A stretch of DNA of 64,000 nt from Paramacrobiotus metropolitanus (taxonomy: Eukaryota; Tardigrada; Eutardigrada; Parachela; Macrobiotidae), in contig NW_026570222.1 of the NCBI RefSeq assembly GCF_019649055.1, forward strand, positions 3,596,001 through 3,660,000. The letters are read 5' to 3'. A program made the position numbers and the translations under genes. The notes under the pieces were generated by a model. The model did no database searches. It was not told where the DNA came from and saw only the letters and a program-made list of their open reading frames with translations. Below are positions 40,188-64,000 of this stretch, in pieces (the first letter of the stretch is position 1; each line of letters opens with the position of its first letter).

Positions 40188-41218
40188 ATGGGTGCTTACA
40201 AATATATACAAGAAATCCACCGAAGGAAGCAGAGCGAAGTGATGCGCTTCCTGAAGCGCATCCGTTGTTGGCAGTATCGTCAGCTGAACAGTGTACACCG
40301 TGTTAGCCGACCAACTCGCCCGGAAAAGGCGCGCCGTGTAGGCTACAAGGCTAAACAAGGTATCCGCATAACCACCTGCGTACTGAATCCGGGATAATGC
40401 AGCAGAGATTGGGTCTCTTGCAGGGTACGTAATCTACCGTGTGCGAGTGCGCCGTGGAACCCGCAAGCGACAAAATTCCAAGGGACAGGTGTACGGAAAG
40501 CCCTCCAATCAGGGAATCAACCAGCTGAAATGGCAGCGCAACCTTCAGTCCAAAGCTGAGGTAACAATACTGAATCGCGCAATCTATATTTTATGCGACT
40601 CATTAACAATAATCGGCGGTAGCGTAAGTGTCGATGAACAGATCGACCGATGTAGTTCTGCCAACAAGTCGAAATGTGATAGTAATTGTGGTTTACCCCC
40701 TTTGCGTTCTTGGCGTAACAGTTTGCTAATTACGCCAAGAACGTAAGTGTTGGGTTGGGGGTTTTGTTTCCATAATCTTTCAGTGCGACGTTGTAGTATT
40801 TCTTTTTTGTAAAATCGTGATGCAACAGTTTAGCCCAAATTACGGAATCTGCAGATGTAAGGCACTGTAAAATTTTTGTCCTGGTTTTCCGTGAATCCGA
40901 CGTGTGTTGCAGGAGCGCGTTGGTCGGCGGTGCCCAGCGTTGCGAGTGGTCAACTCGTATTGGGTGGGACAGGACTCTACGTTCAAGTTCTACGAAGTAG
41001 TCCTGGTGGATCCAGCGCATAACGCCATCCGTCGCAATCCGGAGACGCAGTGGCTGTGCCAGCCAGTGGCTAAGCACCGCGAGATGCGCGGCCTCACCTC
41101 CGCTGGACGCAAGTCCCGTGGATTGGGCAAGGGACACAAGTACCACCAAACCATCGGCGGATCGCGTCGTGCTGCCTGGAAGCGCCATCAAAAGCTCTCC
41201 TTACCCAGAAAGCGTTAA
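40188..41218 (+). CDS. RPL15: 60S ribosomal protein L15 (eL15)
   Basis: Three coding exons (40188–40359, 40424–40560, 40913–41218) give exactly 204 residues, the usual eL15 length. Diagnostic segments are [53 protein letters not shown] and [15 protein letters not shown] near the end. eL15 is a basic protein buried in 28S rRNA of the large subunit. The second coding intron (352 bp) carries a strong hairpin (see 40702–40746). A poly(A) signal AATAAA lies at 41287–41292, about 70 bp past the stop. A MITE sits just downstream at 41403. Confidence 0.98.
40702..40746 (+). repeat. Perfect stem-loop inside RPL15 intron
   Basis: CGTTCTTGGCGTAA (40705–40718) is exactly complementary to TTACGCCAAGAACG (40730–40743), with an 11-base loop. 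A G·U and two further A–T pairs extend the stem to ~17 bp. Intronic stems in ribosomal-protein genes sometimes belong to snoRNAs, but C/D or H/ACA boxes could not be placed here. It could also be a regulatory structure or a small foldback insertion. Confidence 0.7.
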
Positions 41219-42565: not shown

Positions 42566-45500
42566 TTAATGGGAATAATCGGGTGTGCTGTGCGCACTGA
42601 AGAGAATGTCCGAGCTGATCGATCTGGGAACACTGACGTCGGACTTCAGAGACAAAGCAGCAGCCGCTGTGCCGATGATAACTGCTTGGTCCAAGTTGTA
42701 TCCACTCAAAATTCCGGATATAAGCCCGGAAACCATGCTACAAAAGAAAGCAATTTTGTTGGCTTAATTGTTTTTAAACCAAATCAATAGGTAGAAATTA
42801 GAAAAACCTGAAAGAAATCTGGCTAAATTAATTCCGACAGTATCATAAAAAAAACAGAAGTCGTTTTCTGTTTCTGATTTAAGTAACCTTTATGATAAAA
42901 CGAGCAAGTTACGCATCATAAGCGTACCAATCTCCGCCGCCGGAAACACTGACAAGTTGGGAACTCGTCACGGGAGGTGCGGTGTAGTGGCGAAAATGTA
43001 AAGCACGCGTAACATTTGGCGAATCGCAATTAACCGGTTGATCCGGAGGACTTCGCGAAACTACCCACGACCCTTGTTTGCCAAATTTAACAAGGAGCAC
43101 TCGAAGTTGGGGAAGCTGGTCGAATAGCCTTTGAAAAGATTCTTCCGCGATCGACAAAGAATGCGGCCCTAAAAACTCATTATTATATCATAAGATGTTC
43201 ACAGTCTAAAAATTTGAAATGTACCGGCTGCAGTGGGATGGAGGCCCCGGTCTATATCGAAATGTGCCATTATCTTTTGCAGTTCCTTGATATTTGGAGA
43301 TAGAAAAGCAATTTCTTTCCAGTGAGAAGTTAAAAATGCCTTTGTAGCTTTGTTGATATCCGTTGGCTCGTAAAACACTACAAAAAAATATTTTTATTTA
43401 TACTGCACACTCTACACGTATTAAGCAATATATAAAACAGTATAAAGATTAATAAATGCATGCATATTTAGATAGTGTAGTAGAATACTCTGTACAGTAC
43501 ATGGTGCACGTGAACGATAAGGTCAGAGCTGTGTCACGGTCGTTAACAATACTATTATAATTATGCACAATATCAAACCATGAAAAATCAAAGCGACTCT
43601 TGAGAAAATGTAAATTTTCGATGTACCGGTAGTTTCGCTAAAGACATGGAACTGAAGTAGATTCAAATTTGAATGTAAGGAGTTATTTCGAATTTTTGTG
43701 CAGCAACCGACAACCGCGTTTGCACTGCTTCGTTGCAACAGGTACGAGCTTAGGCACTTTTCAGAAACTGAACTCCGGTTCTTCGTATCTTAACCTGGAA
43801 TACTGTGGCTACTTAAAAATGAGCAGCTACTTAAACCACGTTAAACCAGATGAGTGTATGGAGATTGTTTCTACGTTTTTACCTCGATCGAAAACCTTTT
43901 ACTGTGCCACAGGCAGCAGTTTATTATCTTTCGTTGGCCTTATGGTTTCTCTTTGTACTCCCAATTGGATCGAAGCCGACAAGCGGCTGTACAACAACCA
44001 TTTTGACAAGCTAGGGTTGTGGGTATTTTGCTTCCGATCTTTCACAGATCCGAAACGCCGTTACCCACAGTATTTTGCATCTTGTCGTTGGTTTTTTGAC
44101 TATGAGTGGAAGTTTATGTACGATATCTTAGCTCCACGTAAGTGCTAAAATTAAGACAACAAGTACATAGAAATAACTGTCCCATTTCATTCTGTGTAAC
44201 AGCTAAACGGGTACATCTTCGCTTGCACCGGGTTCTCACCTTCTATCTGGGCGTACGAGTCACTGGAGTCTGGAGTCATAAAATTTTTACAGATTTTTTC
44301 AAGGCAGTGCAAGCGACATTCTGCATTGGTTTTGGATTGGGTGTGGTTTCCATGGCCTTTCTCTCAATCTTGTGGATCAATAACTACGCGCCACAAAGAC
44401 AAGCGGAGCTGCGCTACATTACGGCATTTACACATCTTGCATCAAGTAAACTCAAGTTACTTAAATACGGCTGGCTGAGTATAATATTTTTATTAATTTA
44501 AAATTTGTGAGAATGACAGGCTACTCAATATCAGCAAAAAATGATCTACAGCGCATACATATATTGTACAAATGATAAAGCTGTATACAATCCAGTGCTG
44601 CAATACAAAATTGCTCTACTTTGGTTCTGTTTTCCTGAAAACCTATGATGTTTTACAGGTTTCTGGATATTCGTAGCCTACACTATTTTTGCTGCTAATG
44701 CATACGTCCCTCAGTGGCTACCGGGATGGCAGAACAATTACCTTTCGTGGTCATTTGGAATATGTGTGGTCAGCGGCCTGCAGATGTTTACCAGCAGCGC
44801 CTTGTTTTTCTGGGATGGTGTGAATGTGCAGAAACGCACAGAAAAGCGAAAGCGGGCAAACGGGACCAGTGGTGGCATATCGCATAACCACACTCCCTTA
44901 TCCGAAGAATTAGAACTTTGTTCGGATCAGCAAAATATTCTTCTCGAGAGCGATGTCTGAACAGTTCATATCAAATTTTTATAATTACGAGTATTATGCA
45001 CGATTCGTTAGACTCTCAAAAATAGTACGGTACAGCATGAATAGAATATCTTCAACTAAGATTTCAACATTTTTTCCTTTAAATATATTTTAAAACGAAT
45101 GTAATCTAGCGGCACATTTATTAAAACTGCGAATGTCCGAAATAAAAGGAAAAAACTGCTTATGTATTTGGGCAACCGATCGCAAACACACAATAACTTA
45201 AACACTTGCTCAATCCATGGTTGCGCACTGCACCCACATTATTCATCAATAAAGTCTGTGTCACATGCAGAAAACATATACCCTAGAAATTAGGAATGCA
45301 AACTACCTGGGCAAGGTCTGCCGAACAATACATACCTGAGTATGCAACTGGCAGCGGAAACTTAAAACAAAGTTCAATGTTCATGGTAGCTATTGATAAT
45401 ATTTCGCACTTCGCAACATGTGATTTGTAGAATACCCTTAAAGGAATCCTCTACAAATACAATGTAAAACTAATTGCAGTTATCCTGGATGTTAAAAATA

Positions 45501-48500
45501 ATACTCTTGTTCTCCCGTATAGGACAGGAGAACGTCTACGATTTTTCCAGTTAATTTTCTGTCAAATCTGAAACCTCGGCTAACTATAAACGAACCGAAG
45601 CAGAATATAAACTACGAAGTCCTGCGCTTTTCAGACATTACAGCCACGATGCTGCTAGCTTCTACCAATTATGCAGTTAATTTCGTTTTTATATAAAAGA
45701 AAAATGCGGAAGATTGAAGGCCATCAAATGTAAAATCAACCGGATAAAATCACACATTATTTTCTCACATTTCTAAGGTTAGCCGTAATGTGGCATTACT
45801 TAACTCAAATAGTGCGGTGTACGTTATTTTTATAAATGCTATTTGGTCAGAATACTCTCAGAGTTCTTTTAGAATCGGCACCAGCATTATGCAAATCGCT
45901 GTTCAAGACGTATATTGTTACGAGACGTGATCTAGTAAGAAACCTGCCATGACAAACCAAAGTTACACACGCAAGCATTTTTTAAGCTAAAAATTATGTT
46001 GGGAGCTTGAACAAAGGTTATGTTTTCGAGTGACTTGCGCATAAGACTTAGTAATTCTCGATACCGTGAAAAAGACCTTTGAAATTTTACAGAATTGCGA
46101 GAATTTGAAAGGTTTGTTGTGCCTCGTTTTCACCATGGCCATGTCTGGGAATTGTGAGAGAAAGCCGAACACTAACGGTACGTGCAAGCGGTGCAACGAT
46201 ACGTGTCTGTAGATTAATCACGTGTATCCATGGCCACTGGCCAGTTAAAATTATCATAATTAGGGATAGTAAATAGAAGTACGCTGCGAGTTTTCATAAA
46301 ATTAACGGAAAATAGTAATACAAAGTGTATACCGGCTAATATCCGATAGCTTTCTTAAAGAATTATTAAATCGCAAAACACCGCAGTATACAAGCACGGC
46401 ATCAAGGAATGACAGAGCCGTACGCATAATATGCAATAAATGTGCCGTTAGATTACAACGTATCGCCGGACGCTAGGCGTAAATGTAAAGACTAATAACA
46501 GCAGTAAGTACTTACACAAATGCAGTGTAGATTCACAAAATCAAATAGTTTTATTGGGAAGCTTTGGGGTATTGTAGAATTAATGCCATATTAGTAAGCA
46601 CTACTGCCTCATCGAAATCATCACCGTGAATCATGCATATTTAGATTTCGCTTTCAAGGTGCGGTGCTAGCTGGCGTTGAGTACAGACTGTAATTATATT
46701 GTACTGTCAGCGAATCTTGCAGGTATCTCAAGGATACATAACATTCTGAAGGGAAAGTATGGCATCTGCATACTGACATTCTATCGGAATATAAGTCCAT
46801 AAAATCAATACAATGCTTCCGTAAACTTAAAATCTAAACATATTAATTTGTTAACTGTGAAGTAAATTAATACATCAATGAATAATATAGATATTACAGA
46901 GCATGCACGGTAAAAATAACAGGATTCGAACAGGAACAGTAACAGGATTCGCCACACCAAAGTAGATGTTTGGGTTTCAAGCAAGCTTAATTATGGTTTG
47001 CTGGGATTCAAAAATCTATTAAGAAGAGATCACGAACAGTCCTGGTTCTCAAAATTCAGTATAAAGCGGGGAAGTATTACACAGATGTATGCGCATTCGC
47101 AAGAAAGGTTGGATTCTTGTTGCTCGCGTATGAGAAGAACATGTCAGTTCAATTTTTTAATTTATCAGTTTAACTAATTCCGGAAAGAATGTTTTGATTT
47201 GATTTCAACAAAACAATAGGAAACCCTATCATAAGCCATAACGTATGAAGACCGGCAGTTGTTTAAGGCTTCCAAACTGCACCAAGGCAGGGCCATTCAA
47301 TTTTTCTGTAATTACTGTATGTGTGATTCAGTGTGAAAGGTTAGTTTGCAACATATGGTCACAACTGAAAACCGGTTTCCGGTTGCAATATATTTTAATG
47401 CTTCTACGTCTACCTAGTTTCTGTTTAATCCTGAGACGACCAACAAGACTATAATAATGTTAACGTTGCACTATGCAGGTACAGGTAACCGCAGGTTGTT
47501 ATGCTTTCCATCAACGTGTAAGTCAGATTTTGACGATTGGGTAGAGGGTGAAGCAGACCATGCCGGGTAGTACAAACGGCAAACATCGTTCGATTGGAAC
47601 GCTCGCTTATATTATAGGTTTGTCCGAAACGTTTTAAAAGCACACAGGTAAAAATCAATATTGTCCATAGCATGTCCATCTTGAACACGTACATAACAAT
47701 ATTACCAAATAAACGCGCCCATGGTTTGGTCGGAATGATTCACCGTTCGTACGGAGCATTATATGTGTGCGCCATGTCCATGAGTACGCACACCGCCATT
47801 TCGGATAGACCATATTATCTATAAATGCAGTCAATGCTCTTGTAGCATATTTAGTCGACTATACTAAAATCTGCTAAACGTAAAGCGTCACAAACATGTT
47901 GATGTGAGAAGGTGAACTCTAAGTACGGAGAGTTCAAGTTAAAAATTTCTGGTTTTACCGTCCATTAATATTTCTTGCAGCTCGCTCGCAAAGCTAAGCC
48001 ACCAGACACCACGCTAAGATACATTTTATCTGCATCCTCGAAAGCAATTATCCACGTACACTGACCGGTGTATATGTTCTATAATCTGTATCAGTACGCC
48101 GCTAATGGATGTATAGTCACCGTAAAATTTCCTCAATGATTTGGCGATAAGAGCCAGCCAACGGAATGACGGAGTAACGTGGAATACGTACTGATTTGTA
48201 TTGCATCGTTATCTATATCGGGGATTATTTGGATTATACAGCTTCTTCATAAATCTGACGTTTTTATACCCACTACAACCTAATAACTGATAACCCAAAA
48301 TCAATATGGCTGGAAGATTCGGCACGCGTACGGCTACCGTTACACCCATTTCCAGGACCATAGGCGGATGGTTAGCATTAGCATCGGTATCGTCTATTGT
48401 GGCCATTATTCTCATACTGATCGCCTTTGCCACACCGGTCTGGCTGGAGGCCGATCGGAATATGGTGGCTAACCCGGTGCCGCCCTTCAATATTCCCTTC

Positions 48501-51500
48501 GACAAGCTGGGACTATGGCAGTTCTGCTTCCGACTTTATCAAATAGGCGACCCTTTTCTACGCTATTCGGTTATATGCCGATGGTACTTCAGTTCGGGCT
48601 GGCCACCAATGATGGAGTTTTTGGCACCGTGTAAGTGCGCGTAGGTATTCTGCATACAAAGCATTTCTTTCTGTTCACATTTTACAATGCACCAAAACTT
48701 ACTGCGATAGTTCTACTATCTGTTATGTAATTATATTTTTCGTCGTGGTGTACACACGGCGATCACATAGAGCTTTTGAGACTGGAAAAAATAGCATTAA
48801 CCGCCGAATTCAGACATGCATATTGTTTGAAATCTTTCTTATTACCGTACGGCTTCGCTTAGTCAAGGCGTTTACAGCCAGTATATGTACTTGGGTAATT
48901 AGAGCAGCTAGTGCGCCACCGCATGATTTTCCCAAGCTTTAAACAAATAATGTTTTAGGTTAGGCATCGGTAGAAAATAGCAATACGTAAATCTATAATG
49001 CGGCAAATTTCATCTGTCCCAGGCCGCACTCAATCGATGACCCATATACGATCGTGCCTTACCTAGCCCATTGTAATTTTTCATTTATATGCCGGTTTCA
49101 AGATTGCCGAGCACTGTACAATACTTAGCGCATAATGAAGATTGTGGATACGGTAGACATCCAAAAAAGCGAAAAGAAACTAGAAAATTAAATACGAAAA
49201 GAAAATTGACCTATCGGCAATTATTCACGCTACTACTTTTAGTAACAATATCAACAATACGAAAGATTTAACAGCAGAGAATGTTTCGAAAAATATAAGC
49301 AAAATATTTGCATTTGTCGAAAGAAAGGCAATGACAATATACCAATACATATTTGAAGCCGATCAAATCTGTTAATTATACACAGCTACTTTGTGACGCT
49401 GGCAAAAAGACAAGATCAAAAAGCATAGCAATTTGAACAATTTTCCCGTTTCTCTGGGTTTACACTTTTTCAGAAACCTGCAAGTTTGTTATATCTCACT
49501 TTAACCAAGGGGAAAAATAGGGAATATGCACATATCTATACACGGCATATGCGTTATATACGGTATAGTGCGGTGTCGTCGATTTTTATGAAAACTATGG
49601 CTTCATCGCTACGTAGCATAAACAACATCGTAAGATTCGTAACAACGCCCAAGAGCACCCAGTAAGAAAACACACTATTCCCAAATTTGGGAATCTGAGC
49701 TTTTAAAAGCTCAAATTTTTTTAGTTGAGTCCATGTCAGATTCTGAATTAACGTTTGACTAACTGGGTGATTTTTTAAACAGCCTTTTTCATCGCGACAC
49801 AAGTCATCTATACAGTGGGCTTCATCGTAAGCATAGTAGGATTGATCATTCTTATTTTGGTGCTCGTACGTGGACCTGAAGCTCGTTTGCTGTTTGGACT
49901 TGGTGCAGTATTCATGATAGCAGGTGAGTGCACACAACAGAATTATGCCCATTAAAGTAACATTATGGTCGTAACCGGTTTCCGAAGATGGTATGTATTT
50001 TGAACAAAAATTCATAAGCCATGACTTAGATTTCAAAGCCAAATAACATGATTGCGGTTTTTAATAGCCATACTGATCTGCATATCCTTCATTGTGTTTG
50101 CGGCGCGAGTATTCGATCGAGAATGGATATTCGGATGGCAGAACAATTACTTATCATGGTCATTTGCGCTGGCCGTTGCCGGTGGGATCTTATTATGGGT
50201 CTGTGCCGCACTCTTCCTGATCGAAGGACGTCGTCAGGCTTATTACGATGAGCGTGGCCCTGGTCAAGTTACTGTTGTACATCGCCCACCGGTTGTAACC
50301 GAACCCACAGCTAAACGTGATCAGGCTTTCGTGGTTCAAGAACCTCTACGTAAGACCAATCCTGAACACACCACTGCTGTAAGATTCTACTAACATTCAC
50401 ACTAACTTTCTGGCCACAATGCTCAGCTGCGCATAATTGTGACTTCATTAATAAACTAACACATAAAACTAACATGTATTGTACCGGCGTTCTCGTGCAA
50501 TATTTACCATAACCAATATTTACAATAACCGTTCTCGTGCAATATTTATTTGTTTATTTATTTATAATAACCGTACTTATTAAAATTAATAAGTATCAGT
50601 ATTTAAATATACGAGTATAGTAACGGAACCATTACCCTGCTGGTCTTCGTTGCTCAAATATATGCGTTTATGTTGTATGGAAATTATTTGATAACTTTCT
50701 ACCAAAGCTCTACGATTTTGATATCCCTGATATTAATCCTAGCCTTACTAGGCCAGTTCTATTGTGTCCCACAAAATAAGAGAATTAGATTTCCTTGCAG
50801 CCGTAAGTGCTAGGTGGTTTCTGAACTGCATTAACTTCTGTAAAGTTCTAATATCTTATATTAAACAGTATCAAAAAGTCAATCGCACATGCGCAGCGGC
50901 AGTATCGTGGCAATCGTTTCCTTTACAATTTGCTCAACTATGGTGAGACATTTTCTGCCTCATTTTCAGTCTCAAACGGACTTCAAATTAACGAATGGTG
51001 ACCGTGAGTACAAGAACATATCCGTCAAAGCTCCAATATTACCGCCAAAACCCGGTAGCACGAATGGTGATACCTATTCCTATGAATATCGCAGGGAATA
51101 CCAGTATGCCGTTAAGGACAGCGATCTGTAAAATAGCCGGGGAGCTCAAACCATATTCAGTTGTTATTTTTTTCTATTGTCTGAAAACCGCTGGATAGTA
51201 TTGTGTTTGTGATTGCCATTTTAGGATTATTTGACGAATGCATGGGTGAATGGTTTTTTCTCGTTTCCTTATGGAATCTCTCTATACAGCCTGTTTTTGT
51301 CCTCTTGCATTTATTTTTGTTTTCCAAAACTATCTGTCGGCCAAAGTTGCTGGTTTACGTACGTTGTTCAAGAGCTGAAAATATTGGCTTTCGCTTTTTT
51401 ACGTTTTTCCATTGCCCTGTAGTGATTTACAGTGGTGCCTGCAAGACCACATGGGCTTATATTATAAGATGGCATTGGATCAAGGATGGACCATTTCCGG

Positions 51501-54500
51501 TTATAAATGTTAAACAGTCTGGTATGCAGCAATAACCTGCCAGTGCATGTCCAATCGGCAACAGTATTTTTTATGTGAATTGTACAACGCTGAAACCTTA
51601 TCACCTCTGCTCTCGACTTCGTGATGAATGGACTGTCAGTTGGCTTTTCATACCTGCACAGAAAATGCTTTACGACGGTAGCTCGATACCTGCGCGCACG
51701 TACCCTGGCCTTCTTCCGTCGAGTTGCAGCTTGCTGCTCTTTTCCGGCAGACACATCAAAACACCATTGACCCAAATATCTTTTAACTAGCGTAATTTCA
51801 GTGTGCTCACGATAAAAATATTATCATCACCGCTTACTGTCTGCGTTCTGTATTAATTTCATAAGGACTTTACTTGTTATGTAATCCTCATTTTGTGTTG
51901 TTAATGTACTTGTTTGGATTATTATTAGCACTTTGTTAAATAACGCATATTCGTTCACTGTGGCACTACCAATCTGAAATTAAGTTGGACTCAGGTAGTC
52001 CAGCCTATTCAGTCGTCAAAAGCATTAAAACATTTACTAATCGTATTATGAAAATACGCGTGTTCTATATTGCACTTCACGCTTCGATCATGCGTCACAT
52101 TATGCACGGTAACTTATTGAAATAGTTCACAATCGGTGTAGTTTTGCAGAAACCTGCCCAAGAATATTCCAAAAGACTTAACAATGCACAGCTTCGCAAA
52201 AAACACAGACACATTCAATTCGTGCAGGCACATTAAAATTCTTTTATTACGGGTTGATAGTTGTAGGTTCTAATTTTACAACAGAGCGGAAATCTGCCTC
52301 GTAAAATTCGGTTATAGAACTTAAACCTGTACGTTTTCGCTAGGTTTGTAAAATGTAATTTATTTTTTTGTTACGGCAAAAAAATACAGTATTTCATAGC
52401 AATGTGATAGCTTGCGTCAGTTTTTTCTTGGCTCAAAGGGATTAACTCTTCCCGAGTCTTAAGGAGAATACAGCAGTATGCTACCGCCTCTTTCAGATTT
52501 GCCGTTCCCCTCAGTTTCGCTGTTGAACAGATTCTGCTCGTTATCGATCAACAATGGAAATGACACAAGTCAAGTACGGTGTGGTGGACAACGACCCAAA
52601 CTGACTGTTACGGTATCGCTGCATAGCCTGCACCCATATAAAAATTTGCCTTTTTGCGAAAGCAGAGTAAACCGCAGTGAGTCAGTAGAGGGAAGTAGGT
52701 TAGACATGTATCGTCATAATAGGTGTGAATCCCGAGATTCATAGATGTGTGCAACATCCACAAAGCGACGGCGGCGGCACAAGTACATTTAAGCAATCAC
52801 TACGCCACAAACATGGATTTGTCAAATAATGTACTAGTCTCCATACACCAATATGTGCCACACCCAAATCAAACCCATGTGCAACTGTTACGCTTATTTA
52901 ACAAAAGAGCTCAACTGATCAAAGTGGAAAAAATATGGAAACAACCTCTGTTTAGATTTTATTCACAACAACCTTTTTAACAAACGGCCATCAATCTGAT
53001 TTTTTATAAAAAGAACCCAAATGTTATTTATAGGCAAACAACGATTAACACAAATCTTCAAGAAATGTTAACCTTTCAAAAAATCCACAAAAATTTTCAA
53101 GAAATGTCCACCTTTCATCCTTGGCAAGAGAAGATACAATTAAATCGATTTCCAGTTTACTTGGATAGTTCCAACACGTCTGAAGAGGCAGAAATCGATC
53201 TTTAATTACATCGTAATTTATAAAGGTCAGTGGCCATGCAAACATCCCGTAAAATAGGTAATTAACAGAGCTCAAAAATTTGCATATTTTAGTTATCCGG
53301 TTTTTCTTGTAAAAACGGTTTATTTGTGCATTTTGATCTATAGAAAAATCGGGACTTCTCAAACATTTAGCCGACTAAAGATATGCTAAAGACTAGATCC
53401 AGAAATAGTAGTTTCAAATACTAAATTATATACACGCATACAGACACACGTGTATCTGTAGGTTGTAGGATACGGTGGATCGTACATGGACAATAATATC
53501 GTGCATGGGCTAATCTGCTTAATTAGTAAGTATATTTAGTACCTTTATTAAAATTACGTAAATCGGGCATTTACTCTAGCAGTGAAAGCAAATTATTCTT
53601 TAATTTTCCCATGAATCGCGTAAAAATCTTAAACCGATGATCACCATTTGCTATTAATATCATTCGTTTAAACTTTACAGTACGACGTGCATTAATTATC
53701 AAAAACTTTGCTGACTACTCTAGTTTAGTAGATACAACATCCGCGCGCCAAAACCACGACTATAGTGCCTCAACGGTGCACGTACAGATACAGGTGCTGT
53801 ATGTGCTTTATGCTGCGCATATTAATATGCAAATTAATTGTCAGTACAACCTGTACTCACTCCAAAAAGCAATAATTTTGTGCATAACACGGCTAGTACC
53901 ACGGCTAGCAGTGCTGTCTCGACAATTACGCATTGCTTGCAACAAGAAACTTTAAAAGCAACGTCATGAAATTCAAATTTTCCAGGATATTTATTGTTAG
54001 TTCGGTTTTCGCTTTCTTATCTGGCTTCATTGCCCTGTGCAGTCCTGCATGGTTGGAAACACGGGTTGGCAACAAACATTTCAAACGAGCCGGGTTGTGG
54101 GTATTTTGCTTTCAAGCATTCGCCGATCCGACCTTTCGGTTCCCAACAGTGGTCACCGGCTGTTCTCATGTGTTCAATGAACGCTGGTGGCATTTTAGGG
54201 AAGTTTTCATGCCAGGTAGAAAGCCGATCCGATTGTCGCCGATATTTAAATAGTTTTATCACTTTTATGTACATCTAATACATAAATATTATCTTTTACG
54301 TTTAAGACTTTAAGTTGACTAATGATTCTTTGCAGATTTCTTCTTAACCGTACAGATCACTTTTACCACCGCCTTCGTAATTTCAACAGCTGGCTTAGCC
54401 ATACTGCTTCTGACGAAATCCCAACAAAACAATAGCGTTTTATCCTTTACTTTGGCATTGTTCCATTTTATATCAGGTGCGTTACTGCGAATACGTACAC

Positions 54501-57500
54501 TGACGCACCGTCAAGAACGCCTTAGAATTTACATAAAGTTTAAAAATTACTAAAACTTATCCGGTGTTTATCTAAAAACTTATCCAAAAATTACTAAAAC
54601 TACAAACAAGATAATATAATACTTATGTGATATATTCCTATCAATATGATAAAATCGTAAATCTGCTTACTATGTTGATAGAAAACAAAGGTTACAGATT
54701 AGGCTTGGAAATATTTTTATTCAAAGGATCTTGCAGGTGTCTTCACAACATTAGCCGTCACACTTTTTGCTGTCCGCGGTGACGGAAGAGACTGGATGCC
54801 TGATTGGAGAAGGAACTATATTTCATGGGCTTACGCGTTCGCTGTCGTTGCGGGAATTCTACAGTACTTTACCGCTGCTTTGTTGTACTGCCATGCTCAT
54901 CATCAAAGAAGAAATACTGGACATGTTCTTTTAAAGCAGGATAAAATGGAGCTAAAAGATGTTAAAATTCAAATCTTTCGTGTAAATCAGCTGAACAATG
55001 CAACGCAAAGTGCCAATTGCGCTAGAACATATGCAATGCTTCCGCAGAAAGAACGGGTTTAACAACCGCTTCGATAATCCACACGAGTTTAATTGAAAAT
55101 CTGTATTTCCAAAAATTTACTGCATGCCAGTGGATTCGCAGTTGTACTCGTACATGCTTTTATGCAGTATGCAACTATGCATTACTCAACACTGTATGGA
55201 AAATTTGGCTGTTATCGATGATTTTTCCACATTTCCGTCATAAACGACTTTTATTCACCAATGGCTACTCAAAAAGCATACCGAATTAATCGTTTGGATT
55301 CATATTTTTTTCCAACATGTCATAATCAACAAACACACGTAATTCATACTTATCATGCGAATAATGCGACATGGTTCTACAAAGAAAACATATTTTTTCG
55401 AAAGCTCCATTTTAATTCCGCATATACGCTTTAAAGCTGCACAAAAACCACATAATAATTGTAACAGACGTATTTAAAAGTCTGTTTACATAAAGTGTTC
55501 ATTTTACTTTCATATTCAGTACATGCACTGTGCACAGTACAGAATGTTTGTTAAAATTTTTAGCGGTCCACTTGTGCAAACCTTGATCTTTATATACCAG
55601 CTACTCGTAAAGTCATAAGTCTAGTTTGTGTATAGATAAAGCGCAAACAACACTCTTCAAAATCTAATATATTTTTACAAGTAATCCTGTGACGTCCTAT
55701 CTTGCAAACTGCGAAACTGCAGCATTATCTAAACTGAAGTTAGGACAACATGAACCAGAACACAGTACCAATGTCCGGCAGATGTTTATTAAAAAATGCC
55801 AGAATGATTCATGGACTGGTGCTATCTGCCTTGGGAACACTCTCATTGATTATATCATATTTTACTCCCCATTGGTAAACCCTAAATCCGCATAAGGGCA
55901 CCGCTGGCCCTACTTTGAATAACGATGCGAAATGACACCGATACAAATGCTACTTCTTCTTTTTAGGCTTCAATCTCATCGTCAGGCCTACAGCGAATTC
56001 GTCAAGCTTGGATTGTGGGAAATCTGTTTCAATAACTATTTCCATCACTCTTTCCAGATTCATCATGCCTTCTCAGGATGCCACTGGGTTCATGGCAGGG
56101 AATACCGGCCCATATACGAGTTTATTCAACCCCGTAAGATCAGAAACTTTTGCGTCAAAATAAAGTTGACCAGCCAATCATTTTTAGCATGGCTACTAGC
56201 AGTTCAGGGATTCATGACCATCGGTTTAGCTTTTAGCCTAGCCGCTACTGCTCTCGCTTCCGTAACATTCTTGCACTCCCGAACCGGAAACAACATCACA
56301 AGGTTCAAACTCACTATTTGCAGCTGCATTATGACAGGTTTGTTAAGTATTGCACCCAATACAATTATGCTTCCAGGCTTGCAAAGCCACAGCTCCGTAC
56401 GTCATATTACGTACTACGGGTAGTACAATATTATAAGCCGTTGCAGATGCACCTATCCCACATTACTGAAAAAATAATGTACAGTAACTGAGAATTACAA
56501 ATTTACTCATGATTTCAGTTTACAATAATTTCAGCTGCTTTCCTATTCTTTTCGTTGGCTCTTTTTGGAGCTAAGGCCAACGACCAAAGCTGGATGCCAC
56601 ATCAGTTGTACAACTATATCTCCTGGTCATTTTGGTTAACATTTGTTTCAGTTTTGCTGCACTGCGTGGCGGCAGCAAATTTTACTATAATTATTAAAAA
56701 TTACGAAAATGTTTCGCGGAATGTTTTGTTGATAGGTGACTGACGGGTGTTGACAACGACAGCCAAATTATATTAAAACATTTGGGTTTTACTTTTACCC
56801 ACAAGATAAAAACATCGTTAAACAGGAAGGCCTACCATACCTGGCACTCTATATTTGGCAGCCATCTCCAAAGCACAGTCGAGGGCTTCAAGTGACAAGT
56901 TTCCATCCAGTATTAACATTGGCGACTCTTGTACGCATTCTTCGTGCTGATGGATCTGCAAAAAGGAGCTTTTTTTACCACCGGCACCACCTGGATGTGA
57001 GTGCGCTCTGCGTAAATCATGAATTTTTCAGCTGACATAATCAGGAGAAATCATCTGATGTATGGACATATTCATGAGTCCGCCAAGCAGCTGGCCAGAT
57101 GGTGCCAAAATACCAATATAACAGGAAGTGGGGTTTCCCGGACATTCCATCAGATGGGACAAATCCTATGGAGTAAACTGCTTTTTAAAATTGTAAAAGA
57201 GTCCAGGTCATACTTTAAAAGTACATGCAATGCTTCAGCCTTTCAGAAGCGTTATACCGACATACTGCAAACACTAACTTACAAAAGCTGTGCTTTTAGA
57301 AACCTGCACTTTGCTATAAGATCTTTATTTCAGCCGTGTACCGCATGATGAACAAATTGTCTATCAGTACTTATGTAGATGCAATATCATACAGCGTAGC
57401 AATTAATAAATGAAATTAAGCGGGTCAACATACGGCTCTGCACACCGTAAGAATATCCCTACAAACAATCAACATTATCTGCCTTTGTAAGAGGTCACAA

Positions 57501-58085
57501 GCGCCCAAACAATATTCAAGTATGGATTCTTATACGGAGTTCCTTATTCTAAATGTGAAATACGAATATATTTGCATAGTGTGAAATATGTGTATTATGT
57601 TTCTCGTATCTTAAACAAATCGATTCAATACTATCTCAACCATTCGACATCTTCCGCTTTCTAAGCTTGTGGGACTACAGTAGTAGTGTAAACAGAAAAT
57701 TTACCGATTTACGACTAAAACAAGATCGTTTTTGCTCAGTAGTATAGGTTATCTTTGTGATTCGAGCAAAATATTGTATTTAAGTATTTCGATGTGTTAC
57801 ATGATGTACGGTATTTACCATATGCGAACACGACTGCTTTATAAACTGTCCATTGTAATCATCTCCAACAGCGCTGAGGAAAACCGCGCTTACTCCCAGG
57901 CGACCTAAACAATCCGCAACGTTCCTGCCTGAAAAACAACAAACGTTCCACATAGCTAACTACCGTAAAATAGCGTTCGTTGACGTCAGAAGAGCAGAGC
58001 GATGATAAACCCATAATAACTGTCATCCCGTACCAACACCTCCACTTGAGAAGTTGATGTCACCACCATGCGTGCTCCCATTCAT
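42566..58085 (-). CDS. PfkB-family kinase, probable pseudouridine kinase; 13.5-kb intron
   Basis: Seven exons join in frame into 323 residues: 58085–58034, 57928–57819, 57165–57037, 56955–56841, 43377–43225, 43168–42928, 42737–42566. Motifs: SSGGVGRNVADCLGRLG (PfkB signature 1 region), FLSAVGDDYNG, CPGNPTSCYIGIL, MSIHQMISPDY, PMLILDGNLS, then across the long intron VPVFYEPTDINKATK, SPNIKEL, VLLVKFGKQGSWV, and the catalytic SVSGGGDC with Asp266. The VFYEPTD and DGNLS motifs and the S-I-H-Q step are those of pseudouridine kinases, which phosphorylate pseudouridine from RNA turnover; many animals fuse this to a glycosidase domain. The first β-strand (usual V-G-G-x-x-x-D) is missing, so an N-terminal exon upstream of 58085 was not found. 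The exon pair 56841/43377 is joined by phase (G|TG giving Val), placing a claudin-like gene cluster inside the intron on the other strand. Confidence 0.85.
43819..44960 (+). CDS. Claudin-like four-transmembrane protein, copy A
   Basis: Three exons (43819–44137, 44203–44445, 44659–44960) give 287 residues. The first extracellular loop carries the claudin signature W–GLW–C–C: Trp50, GLW 66–68, Cys71 and Cys89 (KLGLWVFCFRSFTDP). Four hydrophobic segments follow the family order, and a conserved GWQNNYLSWSF stretch precedes the fourth. The cytosolic tail is basic then acidic (KRTEKRKRAN, SEELELCS). PMP22/claudin proteins form paracellular barriers; arthropod members include septate-junction proteins such as pasiflora. 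Which subgroup this is cannot be settled from sequence alone. It lies inside the large intron of the kinase gene, on the opposite strand. Exon 1 begins at the first in-frame ATG. Confidence 0.85.
44961..48305. other. Spacer between claudin-like copies A and B
   Basis: AT-rich, 3.3 kb. One minus-strand open frame (47449–47694) begins with a signal-peptide-like stretch (MDMLWTILIFTCVLL) followed by Asn-X-Ser/Thr sites, but no second exon was found. Nothing else is supported. Confidence 0.35.
48306..50393 (+). CDS. Claudin-like four-transmembrane protein, copy B
   Basis: Three exons (48306–48630, 49783–49923, 50068–50393) give 263 residues. The signature is complete: Trp46, GLW 69–71, Cys74, Cys91 (FDKLGLWQFCFRLYQI, CRWYF). 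TM1 is GWLALASVSSIVAIILILIA; exon 2 codes TM2–TM3 and exon 3 begins in TM3 and includes FGWQNNYLSWSFALAVAGGI as TM4 entry. The tail is charged and Pro-rich. Exon 2 (141 bp) and exon 3 (326 bp) have exactly the lengths seen in copy D, and all introns fall at the same phase 1 positions, which shows tandem duplication. The first intron (1,152 bp) is long for this window. It is antisense to, and inside the intron of, the PfkB kinase gene. Confidence 0.88.
50621..51131 (+). CDS. 3' exons of an unassigned membrane protein
   Basis: Three blocks (50621–50802, 50869–50942, 50970–51131) are each bounded by consensus splice sites and join in one open frame of about 138 codons to a stop. The first contains two hydrophobic stretches (TITLLVFVAQIYAFML, ILISLILILALLGQFY), the second a third (SGSIVAIVSFTICSTM), and the last is a polar tail ending in acidic residues (YRREYQYAVKDSDL). 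This reads like the C-terminal part of a multi-pass membrane protein, and its position in the claudin-like array suggests a diverged member, but the W–GLW–C–C loop is not visible. The 5' exons were not found; the gene may be partial, divergent or decayed. Confidence 0.4.
51132..53965. other. Spacer within the claudin-like cluster
   Basis: Mostly AT-rich. Between about 51570 and 51790 the composition becomes more GC-rich, and a plus-strand frame reads LSVGFSYLHRKCF and RYLRARTLAFFRR before a stop, but no gene structure could be built. A minus-strand frame at 53045–53362 has no recognised domain. Confidence 0.3.
53966..55062 (+). CDS. Claudin-like four-transmembrane protein, copy D
   Basis: Three exons (53966–54215, 54336–54476, 54737–55062) give 238 residues. 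The claudin loop has Trp29 (CSPAWLE), GLW 43–45, Cys48 and Cys66 (RAGLWVFCFQAFADP). TM1 is RIFIVSSVFAFLSGFIALC. TM4 is introduced by PDWRRNYISWAYAFAVVAGI, equivalent to the GWQNNYLSWSF motif of copies A and B. Exons 2 and 3 are 141 and 326 bp, the same as in copy B. The basic tail (HAHHQRRN) follows TM4. It is nested in the kinase intron on the opposite strand. The start is the first in-frame ATG. Confidence 0.87.
55063..55749. other. Spacer between claudin-like copies D and E
   Basis: AT-rich, 687 bp, no recognised feature. It must include the promoter of copy E. Confidence 0.35.
55750..56743 (+). CDS. Claudin-like four-transmembrane protein, copy E
   Basis: Four exons (55750–55874, 55967–56133, 56188–56337, 56535–56743) give 216 residues. 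Joining exon 1 to exon 2 inside a Trp codon restores the loop: Trp42 (FTPHW), GLW 57–59, Cys62 and Cys80 (VKLGLWEICFNNYF). TM1 is HGLVLSALGTLSLIISYF. Exon 3 holds TM2–TM3 (FMTIGLAFSLAATALASVTF); exon 4 holds TM4 after QLYNYISWSF. This copy has one extra intron, splitting the loop-Trp codon, and a much shorter C-terminal tail than the others. Its stop is only 98 bp from the neighbouring antisense exon of the kinase gene, so the two transcripts may overlap at their untranslated ends or in the intron. Confidence 0.85.
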
Positions 58086-58397
58086 CTGTCATAAAGCGAT
58101 ACAATAATTCACAAACGCTGCATAAAAACGCATATTAAGTATTCATGCTGCATAAAAACAGAGGTAGCATTGCGTGATTTCGCACGTAGACCGACCTATA
58201 GAACACCGGTATCCGCTTCACCTTCAGAAACGCATCTCACACGAAATGATACGCGTTTTTTGCTGCTTATAAACTATCAACTCATATTGCAAAAGTATTA
58301 TTTTATAATTAATAACGGTAAATGCTGAAGTGCAATAGATTCAAAATGCTATCTAATTCATACTGACAGTAAACTGCATAACAAAAGAATGATGAGA

Positions 58398-58424
58398 ACT
58401 TCGATCTGATCTTCAGATCGAAGT
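58398..58424. repeat. Perfect 12-bp-arm hairpin
   Basis: ACTTCGATCTGA and TCAGATCGAAGT flank a 3-base centre. It is isolated and of unknown role. Confidence 0.65.
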
Positions 58425-61400
58425 CAAAAACAAGTAGTGCTTAAAAAAATTGTAGTACTTTAATTTACTGCACGTTTATGTGAGATATCAAGCAATGACC
58501 GGATGCACCTTTACTCTGCACGAGCCGATTTCACAAAATTAATGGCAGCAAACAGTATTTATAACAAAACTGCTTTTAAAAAAACGCTCATTGGCCACCC
58601 CAGCGCCGAACTATTGCATAAAATGTTTTTCAAATGCATTTCGAAAACACGCTTCGATAAAGTAAAGTATTCTGACTATTCTCAGATTTCATAATATGAA
58701 ATCTGTTTGTTTTGCGACACAAAACTGGAGAAAACATAACAAGCCAAAGAAAAATGTGCTATTTTATAGGCATATGCTGTCGGCTGAAACAGCCTTTTTT
58801 ATCTTCGGAGTACGCCACGGCATGCCGACTAAATTTTCTGCTTCAGAAGTTATCAAAGCCATGAGCATATTGATAAATTCCCTTGCTGAACCCATTCATC
58901 CTTCTACAAACTGCTATATTGTGCAAATTGCGCGGGTGTTCAGGAAATGTCTGTCAAAACCGGGACCAGAGAGACCGGAGCGGAAGCTGGGTCTTAGAAC
59001 AACAGAAAACGTACTCCATACGGCCCTGCATGCTGCCAACTGTCATGTTTTCGTACCACCCTCCCCGGTTGCAAGCCAATCGGTCCGTCGTAATTGCATT
59101 CGGCAAGCCTTTAATTATACTCATGAATCCCGACGAACGTAGCAAAACTTCACTATTTCGTCCAGAGCCACTCACATATGCCTTATACGTATGAAAATAT
59201 ATGATCAACGCATACTTCTTTTTTCCAGTTTTTCACGTCCCATATTCAACAATGCACTTACGGTTTCAGGCACTATTTTGATTAAGAGCTCCCTCTGAGA
59301 ATATTATGCTTCAGCGCTTAAGCTTTTTGACTATTTTACCACCAAACAGCCAAAAATGTCTCAATAATTTGACACCAGCGTATCTCCACTGCTATATATG
59401 CGGTTGAACCACAATACAATATTCCCATAACTCGAATCAACAGCCGGTACGCGGCGTTATTCGCATTTGCAGTTCGTGATCATGAATGGCTGCGGGTCAC
59501 AGAAAAAGGAGCATATAATAGCACCTGTTGTATACTGTACGATTTAATACTGGGAATAAGCTCTTGGATTAAGTCAACATAATCTTCCCATCCCAGCTAC
59601 TGCGTCTTCTACAAAAACCCTACCTATATGCTCCTGTTTCCCTTACGCTTATCAGCCTATTATATTCTGCTATGCACACGCGGATGGGATTACCGCCTCC
59701 AAGCAAGCGTTCTCGTGGATATTCCAATCGACTACGTTAACGCCATGAACATGTTGTGGATGCTGAGTAAAACCCAAGGAGAAAACTGCTGTCTTTCAAC
59801 ATAATGCTGCGTTTATGCTAAAGAGAAAATGTTACAACAGCTCATTTGAACTTTTATGATTTTGGTACGTATGAGCTTTGCCGGCACATACGCTGCTATC
59901 ACATGGAAAAGATGCTAATTAATTACGGAAACGATCTCCAATGACCTGCCTTGTACACGTTCGACTTCAAAAAAGCCATCACGTAAGTATTTTAATCGAG
60001 CAAATACGTCTTAAAACTAAACAGCAAGCAAAATTTTCGTGTGTGTAGGCGGAAGTCCAAGGAAGAATTTTGTAAGTACCTTTACAAGTTCGCAACGCGG
60101 GTGTCCAGGGGTCTTTAAAACTCTAGAATTAGGCTGTACATTCCATACTTCGCCTTTTTTATTACAGATCTGTTTACAGTAGCCAATACTAGCCATAGAT
60201 GCAACAGAACAACATGTGATGATGTTGATTTACGCAGCACAGAGCACATAACAGTAAAACGTATGAATATAAATCTTGTTCGAAATTGCTGAGTGTACTT
60301 AGTGAGTATGCGGTACCTGCATGCAGCACTTGTACCGACGTATTGAACCAGTTTTAAAAGTTCATGTTAATTACACTATCGGCCTTCAAATTTTCTTGAA
60401 CAAGATAATTTTGAACTTTCGTACTTATGTGCAAGTAAAAGGTGAAAGCCAAGAGTAGCAATGCAGCGTGCATTTATTAACTATATTTTTTGCTGCTGTT
60501 GATCAGTGTTAAACCACTCATTAGAGTGATTAGACCACTAACTAACTGGCATGAGCGCATGATAAAAAAATATCAAATACGCGCAACAGAAACATTTTTG
60601 TAACAGTAAGGAAAAAACATTATCGTTTTTATCGTCTAACGCACATTGCACACTTAATTCTAAACTGCCGTTGTGCGTTAACCAATACTGTCATACAATA
60701 CGAATTTTCACTTAAACCAGTGCATATGCTTGTACCTGTACTGTATCCTTCAAAAAGATTCAGAGCGTCCAGCGAGCGCGTGATCAATATTTTATTAATT
60801 TCTGCTTCCGTAAAGTGCATATTTAAAATAAATAAAATAATAAAATACGTACGTCTGCGTCAGTGAAAAATTATCGTACTGCTTAATTTGCACTTTGCAG
60901 CAGCCAGTCAACTTTTCAGTTTCCAGTATTAAAAAGTCATCCTAGCTTACAAGTACATTAACTTATTTAAATCCCTGTTTCCCGAATAACTTACAGGATC
61001 CCAATTAGTAATTATTAGTAAGTACTGAGCTGAGGAGATGCGTATATGGCGTATATATACCGCACAATCACTGTAATTACGAACGAATTTACCCTTTTTT
61101 ACAGCCAATTAAACGATTGAAGTAACTTCAGCCAGATAGCAATATTTTATTATTCAGATACCAGAAAAACCACGATACGTGCACTGCTACTGTACGGCAT
61201 ACGTACAAGTACAGTACATATAAATACAATAATAGAACTGTAAATAATTATTATTATCTCAATGACACAATCCACTAGCTACTTAAACGATATATATATA
61301 TAAATATAATATCTATATATATACTGTCATTTAGATCTACTATCAAAGTCTGCTGCAAAACTGTTGTATTCACGAATACTTTCGTACCCCCAAACCGTTT

Positions 61401-61458
61401 CCATTTTTTTAGTATTACACGTTGGCTTTTTTTCGGTAGCGTTTTTTAAAACCACTGT

Positions 61459-61489
61459 CAAGGTGGATAGGTCTACCCTATCCACCTTG
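61459..61489. repeat. Perfect 13-bp-arm hairpin
   Basis: CAAGGTGGATAGG (61459–61471) pairs with CCTATCCACCTTG (61477–61489) around TCTAC. Its role is unknown. Confidence 0.65.
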
Positions 61490-62027
61490 CCACTGTATAT
61501 GACAACACCCAGTGAAATGAGAACTTTTGGCCGTTGGGTTCGCACGAGAACTGTAGATTGTGAACCACATAATTATAATCTCATTTTTTCGACTCAGGTG
61601 TACAGAACAGGTACGGTATGTGCAGACTTGCGGTATAAGTACTGTATTACACAATAATATTATGTAACTGTGTAGTATGCACTTAAGAGACAGTACAGAG
61701 TACTAACGACCAAGACTGCATGCTGCCTGTTACCTTATATTATGAGTTATATCTACAAGTACATACTAATTATACTGTAGGACATAATATTTATATAGTA
61801 TGGAGCGCAACTCGATCTCGTACTATCACAGTTTGCAACTATGGGCACCAGGTAGTACTACAACGAAATTCATTTTTCAAACGAAAACGCTGATTATTTA
61901 TAAAGAAGGAATTTATTTATTTATAAAAGAGTTCATAGCAACTATAACAAACAGACCAGGCCAGCGAGTGCTACCGGGTTTATCTGGTCGGAAATACTCC
62001 AAAATAAAATTTTATAACAGTTGACAG

Positions 62028-62050
62028 TACCCATAATAATATTATGGGTA
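62028..62050. repeat. 23-bp palindrome beside the foldback element
   Basis: TACCCATAATA-A-TATTATGGGTA reads the same on both strands around one central base. It lies 23 bp before the foldback element at 62073 and next to two copies of ATTACTAAACTA, so it may be part of the same insertion. Confidence 0.55.
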
Positions 62051-62072
62051 TTACTATTACTAAACTATCTTT

Positions 62073-62775
62073 ATTATTACTAAACTAACAGGTATTCAAT
62101 CGAGCATGCACCTTGTACGATGACGTCATGGTAGAGAACACGCACAGTGAGACGCAGTGGGCAACCCCTGCGGGTTCTGTGTTTATCAAAACTTTCATAT
62201 TCGTACAATCCGTTCGTACTATGACTCAAAAAATGCGGAAAAAATTTGAAGTTTGGAAAGTGAAAGTTGGTAAGTAAAAAGTTGTCATATAAACGAAAAG
62301 TTTACGATTTACGTAATTCTTGTTTACCATAGAGGTCTATGAGGCAGTGTGCCTTAGCCCTCTTCGCTAAACAAAAATGACTTGTTTTGATCAAATCTGA
62401 ATTGTTTGATGGTTTTCATTGATTGATTAAATTTTAATTGTTTCCTTTTGATTGACTGATCAGGTTCTGGTCACTTCGTTTCACCACAGATCAAGAACCA
62501 AGGATTTTCGTTTAGCATGGAGATCTCTGGACTGGCAAACCACCTCATAGACCTCTATGCTAACGAGAATCGTAAAGTTTTCGTTTCCTTGAGAACGTTT
62601 CACTTGTCAGTTTTAGTTTACAAACTTAGAATTTTTTTCTGCATTTTTTGAGCCATAGCACGAACGGATTGATAAACACAAAACCCGCAGGGGTTGCCCA
62701 TTGCGTCTCTCTGTGCGTGTTGCCTATCGTGACGTCACGTAAGTCGATGGAATACCTTTTAGTTTAGTAATATTA
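62073..62775. mobile_element. Foldback (long inverted repeat) element, ~700 bp
   Basis: The left end (TATTACTAAACTAACAGG... at ~62075) matches the reverse complement of the right end (TATTACTAAACTAAAAGG..., ending ~62774) with few mismatches. The match continues inward through GGGCAACCCCTGCGGGTT, ATCCGTTCGT and TAGAGGTCTATGAGG, giving arms of about 240–290 bp around a spacer of ~180 bp (about 62360–62530). The left arm carries a ~20-bp insertion relative to the right. Each arm contains a GACGTCA-type palindrome (CRE-like). No protein is encoded. Flanking TA could be a Tc1/mariner-type duplication, but this is not certain. Confidence 0.8.
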
Positions 62776-63513
62776 TGCACTACCTTAAAACGGTCACTCT
62801 AAACTTTTTATTATAAAAGTGCTTGGTAGACGTGCCTTTGGAGTCTGGACAATACTTTATTCTCTCCAACTTCAGAAAACAAAAACCATAAAAGAAAACC
62901 GCTTTTTCGCACCGAATGTGGTTTTAATAGTAGTCTGTCCTAGAGTAGTTTGTATCTGTACATGAAGACGCAAACTGCAAAGCTGCAGCCACTGCGTTAC
63001 TATTGTATTAGCCTCGAACAACACACTGTGTGAGAGAGCTTTAACGAAAGACGTCCCACACACGACGTATCGTTTAGCCGGCACAATTTATGAGGAAGCG
63101 TTTTTCGTGTGGAACAAACTCGGGCGTAACAAATCATTTCACATTTCATCAATATTTTTCAATGAGGACGACGGCTGAATATTGCATCTTCCATCACTGA
63201 TGCCCACTGTCGCCTTTTGTTGCATCCTTTGATTTATACGTTCCCATCTCCCATGCTGAGATCAATAGCTTAAATTTTCTTTATGCAGCCAACGCACTGG
63301 CATTAGCTAGCATGACTCAAAACAATTTTGTTAATGGACCATATACACATCGAAGAAGTATCCAGTGTTTTTATCCATTGTTTCCATGAAACCGTACAAA
63401 TATCCAGATATCGCAGCACGCCACGGCTTAATCGAAAATTTTAGTGCTGTTTACAAAGCCTAACAACAATACTAAGCCGTTAAATATTTCCTTCAACATA
63501 TTAATAATACACG

Positions 63514-63694
63514 ATGCTTAATGAAAACGACACCGATAATCCGCGCGGATTCCGTTTATCGAATCTCATTGATTTGGTATTCCCTAGATGGAAGGATGTA
63601 GCAGTTGTCCAGCATCACGATCACTCTATGGGACAAGCTATGCGTTATTACCGTGTCTGGATTTACATCAGCGTGACAGTAACGGTAATTCCAG
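63514..63694 (+). CDS. Possible first exon of a membrane protein running off the window
   Basis: An ATG frame of 60 codons ends at a good donor (CCAG|GTAAGC). Residues 38–60 (GQAMRYYRVWIYISVTVTVI) look like the entry to a first membrane helix, as in tetraspanin-like proteins, preceded by a polar N terminus. No further exon is seen before 64000. An alternative donor exists 12 bp earlier. The family assignment is a guess. Confidence 0.35.
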
Positions 63695-64000
63695 GTAAGC
63701 ATACATGACACAGGATTATTACACCGTAATGAGGTATCATTAGTCAACATAAATTTGTTGTTTACTACGTATAGAGTGTATCTGTATGTGATACACACAA
63801 CTGCCATAGCTTCTTTCATATTATGATCAATTCTACTCGGAGTCAATAATTACTTGAGAATATGCGCATTAATCGTTACAAAACTTTGGTCACGCACCGT
63901 ACATGCGTTAATTTTTGAAGAATATCAAAAGTAACTGACCATGAGGAAAGTACAGTGTAGTCTATACTATACTACTCGTACTATATATATATATATATAT
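63695..64000. other. Window end, AT repeat
   Basis: AT-rich; the last ~20 bases are a (TA)n microsatellite cut by the window edge. Confidence 0.6.

Follow-up and report, generated by a model that had tools for sequence, protein, structure and literature searches.

In the tardigrade Paramacrobiotus metropolitanus, the coding regions of four claudin-like genes (CL1-CL4) lie wholly inside a single intron of an unrelated gene, PsuKG, on the strand opposite to that of their host. The reading that we favor, with a probability of roughly 90%, is that PsuKG is one intact gene carrying four old claudin-like genes in antisense within its intron 14, which would be spliced out. It draws directly on observed features of the locus, namely the gene structures, their open frames, the completeness of the encoded domains and a single genomic match for each host exon. 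The window, a stretch of 64,000 nucleotides, holds the 3' part of the host gene, which was modeled past the window edge in extended coordinates.

The spliced model of PsuKG comprises 17 exons encoding 709 amino acids on the minus strand (73992..42566). Its product is a complete PsuG-PsuK fusion according to the model and Pfam, with predicted activity on pseudouridine and its phosphate. The N-terminal PsuG part matches Pfam Indigoidine_A (E 1.8e-122) over profile positions 6-290 of 291 and the PsuG structure 8k05 (E 1.5e-82), while the C-terminal part of the same chain matches Pfam PfkB (E 2.3e-28) over positions 5-291 of 302, both domains being almost complete; the best PDB matches of the kinase part are the PfkB-like 7c1x, at E 5.4e-34, and 7vkp, a pseudouridine kinase, at E 3.6e-28. 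A preliminary description had treated the host as a PfkB/pseudouridine kinase gene, which is correct as regards the kinase domain but overlooks the full PsuG domain that accompanies it. The host also does not begin at 58085, the upper limit of the span given there, since ten further exons (exons 10-1, 68693-73992, beyond the window) lie upstream and the ATG of exon 11 (58034..58085) is internal in the model. Downstream of exon 11, the gene continues through exons 12 (57819..57928), 13 (57037..57165) and 14 (56841..56955), and then, across intron 14, through exons 15 (43225..43377), 16 (42928..43168) and 17 (42566..42737), the last of which contains the stop codon. Exon 16, which lies within the Pfam PfkB match, ends in SGGGD, which we take to belong to the PfkB signature; the GGGD signature region of PfkB kinases presumably has a catalytic role. 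All 16 host introns are of the GT-AG type, a count that is partly by construction because exon borders were selected visually from the available GT and AG sites, and intron 13 has a weak donor (GTCAGC); independent support for the borders comes from the Pfam and PDB matches. When the genome was searched with the host protein, 17 matches were obtained, one for each of the 17 exons and all within the locus, and PsuKG was thus found once in the assembly. Further PfkB-family matches occur at other genome sites (five of the six rows of a search), none of which was matched by the host protein.

Intron 14 (43378..56840, minus strand) is 13,463 bp long, interrupts the frame in phase 1 and has the ends GTATGG...TTTGTAG. 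Exon 14 ends in KYRVP plus the G of a split Val codon (G|TG), and exon 15 opens with the TG of that codon, followed by FYEPTD; the in-frame joining of the two groups of kinase exons (58085-56841 and 43377-42566), proposed from the letters alone, is thus borne out by the spliced model. The junction is homologous as well, as the alignment to 7c1x crosses '..AAKYRVPVFYEPTD..' without a gap. As 13.5 kb separates the two blocks, the exons up to 56841 and those from 43377 might instead belong to different transcripts of two separate genes. However, each block holds only part of one PfkB domain, and exon 15 begins in mid-domain with an open frame that has no ATG before VFYEPTD, which makes this alternative scarcely credible.

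Haploid merging steps of the HaploMerger2 type can misjoin sequences, and the claudin-like cluster might therefore have been wrongly placed between host exons 14 and 15 during assembly. The published pipeline for what is probably this organism, as described in the excerpted text of PMC8277472, ran Canu and then HaploMerger2 to yield a haploid assembly. Against such an artefact, the 80-kb stretch examined contains zero N, the DNA at the exon-14 border has one match in the genome, and no second copy of this border or of the host exons was found. In addition, the outer nested genes approach the flanking host exons to within 441 and 97 bp with splice sites intact, and host intron 10 repeats the pattern with an unrelated gene. 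A misjoin is accordingly regarded as highly improbable.

The presence of four complete claudin-like genes on the plus strand within intron 14, noted in the preliminary description, was upheld by open frames and by Pfam scores over the whole domain that all exceed the Claudin_2 (PF13903) cut-off (57.1-76.1 bits versus 29.1). CL1 (43819..44960; exons 43819-44137, 44293-44445 and 44659-44960) encodes 257 amino acids (Claudin_2 E 9.3e-18), CL2 (48306..50393; exons 48306-48630, 49783-49923 and 50068-50393) encodes 263 (E 4.1e-21), CL3 (53966..55062; exons 53966-54215, 54336-54476 and 54737-55062) encodes 238 (E 9.5e-17), and the four-exon CL4 (55750..56743; exons 55750-55874, 55967-56133, 56188-56337 and 56535-56743) encodes 216 (E 2.8e-15). 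Hydropathy analysis predicts four hydrophobic, putatively transmembrane regions in each protein, with overlapping segment pairs in CL2 and CL3 counted as one. A W-GLW-C-C motif in the first loop is present in all six modeled family members, which comprise CL1-CL4 and two proteins encoded elsewhere, P138 and P30. Both features are shared with the Claudin/PMP22/MP20/CACNG superfamily (Pfam Claudin_2). In classical claudins, 8-10 residues separate the two loop 1 cysteines, whereas the spacing is 16-17 residues in 6/6 modeled members, which do not show the classical C-x(8-10)-C pattern.

A claudin-like family profile was also run over 2,691 six-frame open reading frames of at least 20 amino acids from the 80-kb stretch; since this profile was built partly from CL1-CL4, Pfam serves as the independent test. 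The twelve frames bearing claudin exons scored between E 1.9e-38 and 1.1e-07 and the next frame E 0.53, and a fifth claudin gene in intron 14 was rejected, only exons of CL1-CL4 having been retrieved. The "partial membrane gene" of the preliminary description, near 50.6-51.1 kb, may correspond to a two-exon candidate frame of 131 amino acids (50670..51131, plus strand), but it was not matched by the claudin-like profile, its two open reading frames gave no Pfam family above the cut-off (best E 0.16), and no paralog was found in the genome (best off-locus E 0.65).

The nested genes were said to fill intron 14 almost end to end, which is apt for its two margins but not for its interior, as the genes, measured from start to stop codon, occupy 39.5% of its length and leave gaps of 3,345 and 3,572 bp. 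Plus-strand AATAAA/ATTAAA motifs follow CL1 (45120, 45141 and 45248), CL2 (50450) and CL4 (56772), a weak indication given 20 such motifs in the whole intron; none occurs between the end of CL3 and the start of CL4, the next being at 55788, within CL4. No RNA genes were matched by Rfam in the window at gathering thresholds.

A new addition to the earlier observation is a tetraspanin gene (Tetraspanin E 3.8e-19) nested in antisense in host intron 10 (58086-68692, 10,607 bp; 58086..64000 within the window). Its first exon lies at 63514..63694 on the plus strand, and exons 2-3 are modeled beyond the window at 64214-64411 and 66855-67756. Only two PsuKG introns, 10 and 14, exceed 3 kb, and each contains one or more antisense membrane-protein genes.

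The claudin-like genes are old, diverged members of the superfamily, sharing only 24.5-31.8% identity with one another. A recent tandem duplication was rejected, as a search of 41-60 kb for direct repeats of 40 nt or longer (seed 14) detected a single one (40 nt, 85%, CL1/CL3). P138 (contig C138) and P30 (contig C30) score 42.2 and 67.3 bits against Claudin_2, both above the cut-off, and all six modeled members share two phase-1 introns at matching alignment columns (128 and 179, the latter at 178 in CL4); further Claudin_2 matches on contigs C13, C66 and C84 lie outside this modeled set. P138 is flanked by a MACPF and a GPCR open reading frame, and an LLGL frame lies about 8 kb from P30. No host gene was seen around either within 9 kb on each side, as judged by a locus-trained coding score and by Pfam on 3 of the 16 listed frames.

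How the cluster came to be nested may be explained in two ways. One claudin-like gene may have entered intron 14 and duplicated there to four, with the copies on C138 and C30 leaving later, a scenario to which we assign slightly less than even odds. Consistent with it, CL1-CL4 are arrayed head to tail along a single strand and have intron phases in common, a six-row unrooted tree has a branch that separates them from the other two rows (73/78; 74% of 200 bootstraps), and CL2 has a short branch adjoining P138 and P30, as expected of a source gene. On the other hand, CL2 is closer to the unlinked P138 and P30 (38.2% and 40.4% identity) than to CL1, CL3 and CL4 (31.8%, 29.1% and 26.7%), and when a partial outgroup was included, CL1-CL4 grouped together in just 8% of 200 bootstraps, although an AU test with the outgroup did not reject the grouping (p 0.416). 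The "tandem family expanding inside a host intron" of the preliminary description is therefore retained as a nested antisense family, while its expansion there is not established. Alternatively, the cluster may have existed first, with the host coming to straddle it through rearrangement. The age of CL1-CL4 and the family members at other genome sites would suit such a capture, but the last three kinase exons would need to have moved across the cluster with the phase-1 intron preserved, and a PfkB gene deprived of these exons would lack the GGGD signature region; we consider this origin unlikely.

Under the favored reading of one intact host, PsuKG (pseudouridine-5'-phosphate glycosidase plus pseudouridine kinase) would give rise to a leftward transcript of about 31 kb, from which the 13.46-kb intron would be removed between kinase exons 14 and 15. 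CL1-CL4 would be separate multi-exon genes transcribed rightward, as would the tetraspanin gene in intron 10, and we infer that the nested genes are expressed, from promoters of their own. Because intron positions and phases are held in common, the cluster probably arose by DNA-level duplication. It may persist because host and nested genes occupy opposite strands, and the splice and poly(A) signals of each gene set would therefore be silent in the transcript of the other. Why the arrangement has been kept, in what order nesting and duplication occurred and whether any regulatory link exists are likewise matters that we infer.

In kind, the arrangement is already known. It had been called unusual, a view tempered by published nested families within one host intron. 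In the excerpted text of PMC1891103, the GMC oxidoreductase cluster of insects lies in antisense in an intron of flotillin-2 and resembles the present case as a tandem family occupying a single large intron of a gene to which it is unrelated, with (almost) all members on the opposite strand; its members are 27-69% identical, the host protein is conserved, and the nest is conserved across four insect species. It differs in the gene families and phylum involved, in the size and position of the intron (83.2 kb in D. melanogaster, early in the host coding region) and in the presence of one non-GMC gene. Similarly, as excerpted from PMC3240667, the TipE family of sodium-channel auxiliary subunits is nested in the last intron of CG18675, a single-copy and widely conserved host, and escape from nesting and dispersed members are known; however, other families are involved and the nested genes occupy both strands, with Teh2 and Teh3 running in the other direction from TipE. 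In dunce, one host intron likewise contains several genes, Sgs4 and the ng genes, three of which resemble a glue-gene relative, although these encode glue proteins (excerpt of PMC10835880). More broadly, C. elegans alone has more than 560 opposite nested gene pairs (PMC12274878). The host itself resembles metazoan PsuKG fusion enzymes in joining an N-terminal PsuG to a C-terminal PsuK in a single chain, with no difference in domain order seen, and no mention of nested genes, in the excerpted text of PMC9247573.

Taken together, the locus provides a clear tardigrade case of a gene family retained in antisense within a single host intron, and altogether two introns of this enzyme gene hold five nested genes. 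As a long shot, PsuKG might have become a lasting home for antisense membrane-protein genes in this tardigrade lineage, kept together because host and nested barrier-protein genes form one regulatory domain, for example through mutually exclusive or coupled transcription in desiccation, a state that may alter RNA turnover as well as epithelial sealing. Gene finders often break up the hosts of nested genes, and the locus is a warning for annotators, since a split of PsuKG at intron 14 would leave the kinase in two pieces. Should other tardigrades share the arrangement, it could be used to date the nesting and to test how splicing of a 13-kb intron proceeds during transcription of four genes in the direction opposite to their host.

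The nested arrangement within PsuKG, a minus-strand gene that fuses the PsuG glycosidase to the PfkB-type kinase PsuK, is real and well formed. A genome search placed the PsuG (Indigoidine_A) exons on the kinase's strand, at 3665705-3669754 of the contig holding the window (window coordinates 69.7-73.8 kb); since these matches lay past the window's right edge, the sequence was extended with stretches L001 and L002 (coordinates beyond 64000 are window-extended). The resulting host model runs from 73992 to 42566 in 17 exons encoding a stop-free protein of 709 aa, with GT-AG borders at 16/16 introns, although the exon borders were chosen by eye, so that the borders and the open frame arise in part by construction. 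Support independent of border choice comes from the two enzyme domains, both nearly complete in Pfam, and from a kinase alignment to 7c1x that is gap-free at the intron 14 junction. Intron 14 (13,463 bp, phase 1) interrupts a Val codon, and the kinase blocks join across it as the preliminary description had claimed. Searched against the whole genome, the host protein gave 17 matches, one per exon and all at the host locus; the kinase halves therefore do not come from two copies. The exon-14 border DNA has a single genomic match, and PfkB-family genes also occur elsewhere (five of six rows in a PfkB search). A metazoan PsuG-PsuK fusion is already described in PMC9247573.

In the surroundings, the nearest recognised ORF beyond the host 3' end (40904-41206, plus strand) matches ribosomal protein L15 over that protein's C-terminal half (E 3.7e-41). 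Neighbouring ORFs at 4-38 kb, 10 scanned of 26 listed, include ankyrin repeats, DUF383, HHH_9, P-type ATPase pieces, Frag1/DRAM and a weak F-box, with 2/10 lacking a match at E 0.01. Host intron 2 carries inverted repeats with arms of 89 and 100 nt (L002 840-1197; window-extended 72840-73197).

Antisense to the host, four plus-strand claudin-like genes lie inside intron 14, as first proposed: CL1 (43819-44960), CL2 (48306-50393), CL3 (53966-55062) and CL4 (55750-56743), with 3, 3, 3 and 4 exons, respectively. Each exceeds the Pfam Claudin_2 cut-off, contains the W-GLW-C-C motif and shows four hydrophobic regions, overlapping segments in CL2 and CL3 being merged as one. Against solved structures, the three best matches of their joint profile were lens fiber membrane intrinsic protein (E 9e-06), claudin-18 (E 9.8e-05) and calcium-channel gamma-1 (E 8.8e-04), the remaining 24 of 27 rows (E <= 10) being named as other families; CL2 alone gave two weak matches, calcium-channel gamma-1 (E 0.011) and claudin-18 (E 0.014). 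The motif cysteines are separated by 16-17 residues, a wider spacing than in classical claudins, and the genes are therefore termed claudin-like rather than claudins.

With gene limits corrected, the four spans occupy 39.5% of the intron, leaving gaps of 441, 3,345, 3,572, 687 and 97 bp from the exon 15 side to the exon 14 side. Poly(A)-like motifs lie downstream of CL1, CL2 and CL4, and a scan of intron 14 found none between the end of CL3 and the start of CL4; as the whole intron contains 20, those behind the genes weigh little. Of the partial membrane gene initially reported there, what stands is a 131-aa, two-exon open frame (50670-51131, plus strand) with a phase-compatible GT-AG intron and hydrophobic stretches judged by eye, but it has neither a family match nor a detected paralog.

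A second nest, additional to the original account, is formed by a three-exon plus-strand tetraspanin gene (63514-67756, window-extended; E 3.8e-19), antisense in host intron 10 (10,607 bp). Fourteen of the 16 host introns measure 56-2,981 bp (median over all 16, 178), and the only two above 10 kb are those in which nested genes were found, an observation compatible either with nested genes having lengthened the introns or with already-long introns having let genes in. Intron 10 also contains a palindromic element of MITE-like appearance (62072-62775), with nested inverted repeats whose arms span 30-109 nt.

The claudin-like genes were compared with P138 and P30, unlinked paralogs on contigs C138 and C30; among further Claudin_2 matches on C1, C13, C66 and C84, a partial C1 join alone was modelled. 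Both paralogs, as full models, have both phase-1 introns at the alignment columns of the nested genes (CL4 is off by one column), and these common positions indicate duplication at the DNA level. P138 is flanked by MACPF and rhodopsin-type GPCR ORFs (L008 4935-5837 and L009 688-1770 in the sequence fetched around it). By sequence comparison, the cluster is old. That it grew inside the intron, as an expanding tandem family, would fit four related genes sharing one intron and a six-row unrooted tree in which a single branch (73/78; 74% of 200 bootstraps) separates CL1-CL4 from the unlinked paralogs; an AU test did not reject the nested clade (p 0.416). However, pairwise identity within the cluster is 24.5-31.8%, whereas CL2 is 38.2% identical to P138 and 40.4% to P30 and groups with both in the same tree (99/99). 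Once a partial outgroup was included, support was 85/87 for the CL2 group and 57/5 for the deeper forks, and CL1-CL4 came together in 8% of 200 bootstraps. In-situ growth is thus not established; the cluster may have expanded in place, or it may have been captured, the host gene coming to enclose it.

Nested genes are common among animals: Hormiphora has 2,357 (PMC8527503), C. elegans, in which a nested gene is able to induce its host, has 566 opposite pairs in addition to ceh-10/polq-1 (PMC12274878), and nesting in flies and mammals favours the opposite strand (PMC8467205). In the literature on tardigrade claudins and nested genes, the search results listed (15 of 134, none with 'claudin', and 10 of 196, none with 'tardigrade') gave no account of this locus, which does not prove that none exists. 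The arrangement had been considered unusual, a view that gives way to published single-intron nests: the GMC cluster in a flotillin-2 intron, a gene family in opposite direction with members 27-69% identical (PMC1891103), the TipE family cluster within one intron of CG18675 (PMC3240667), and several genes, ng/Sgs4, within one intron of dunce (PMC10835880). A gene family nested in one intron is an already known arrangement, of which this locus provides a further example.
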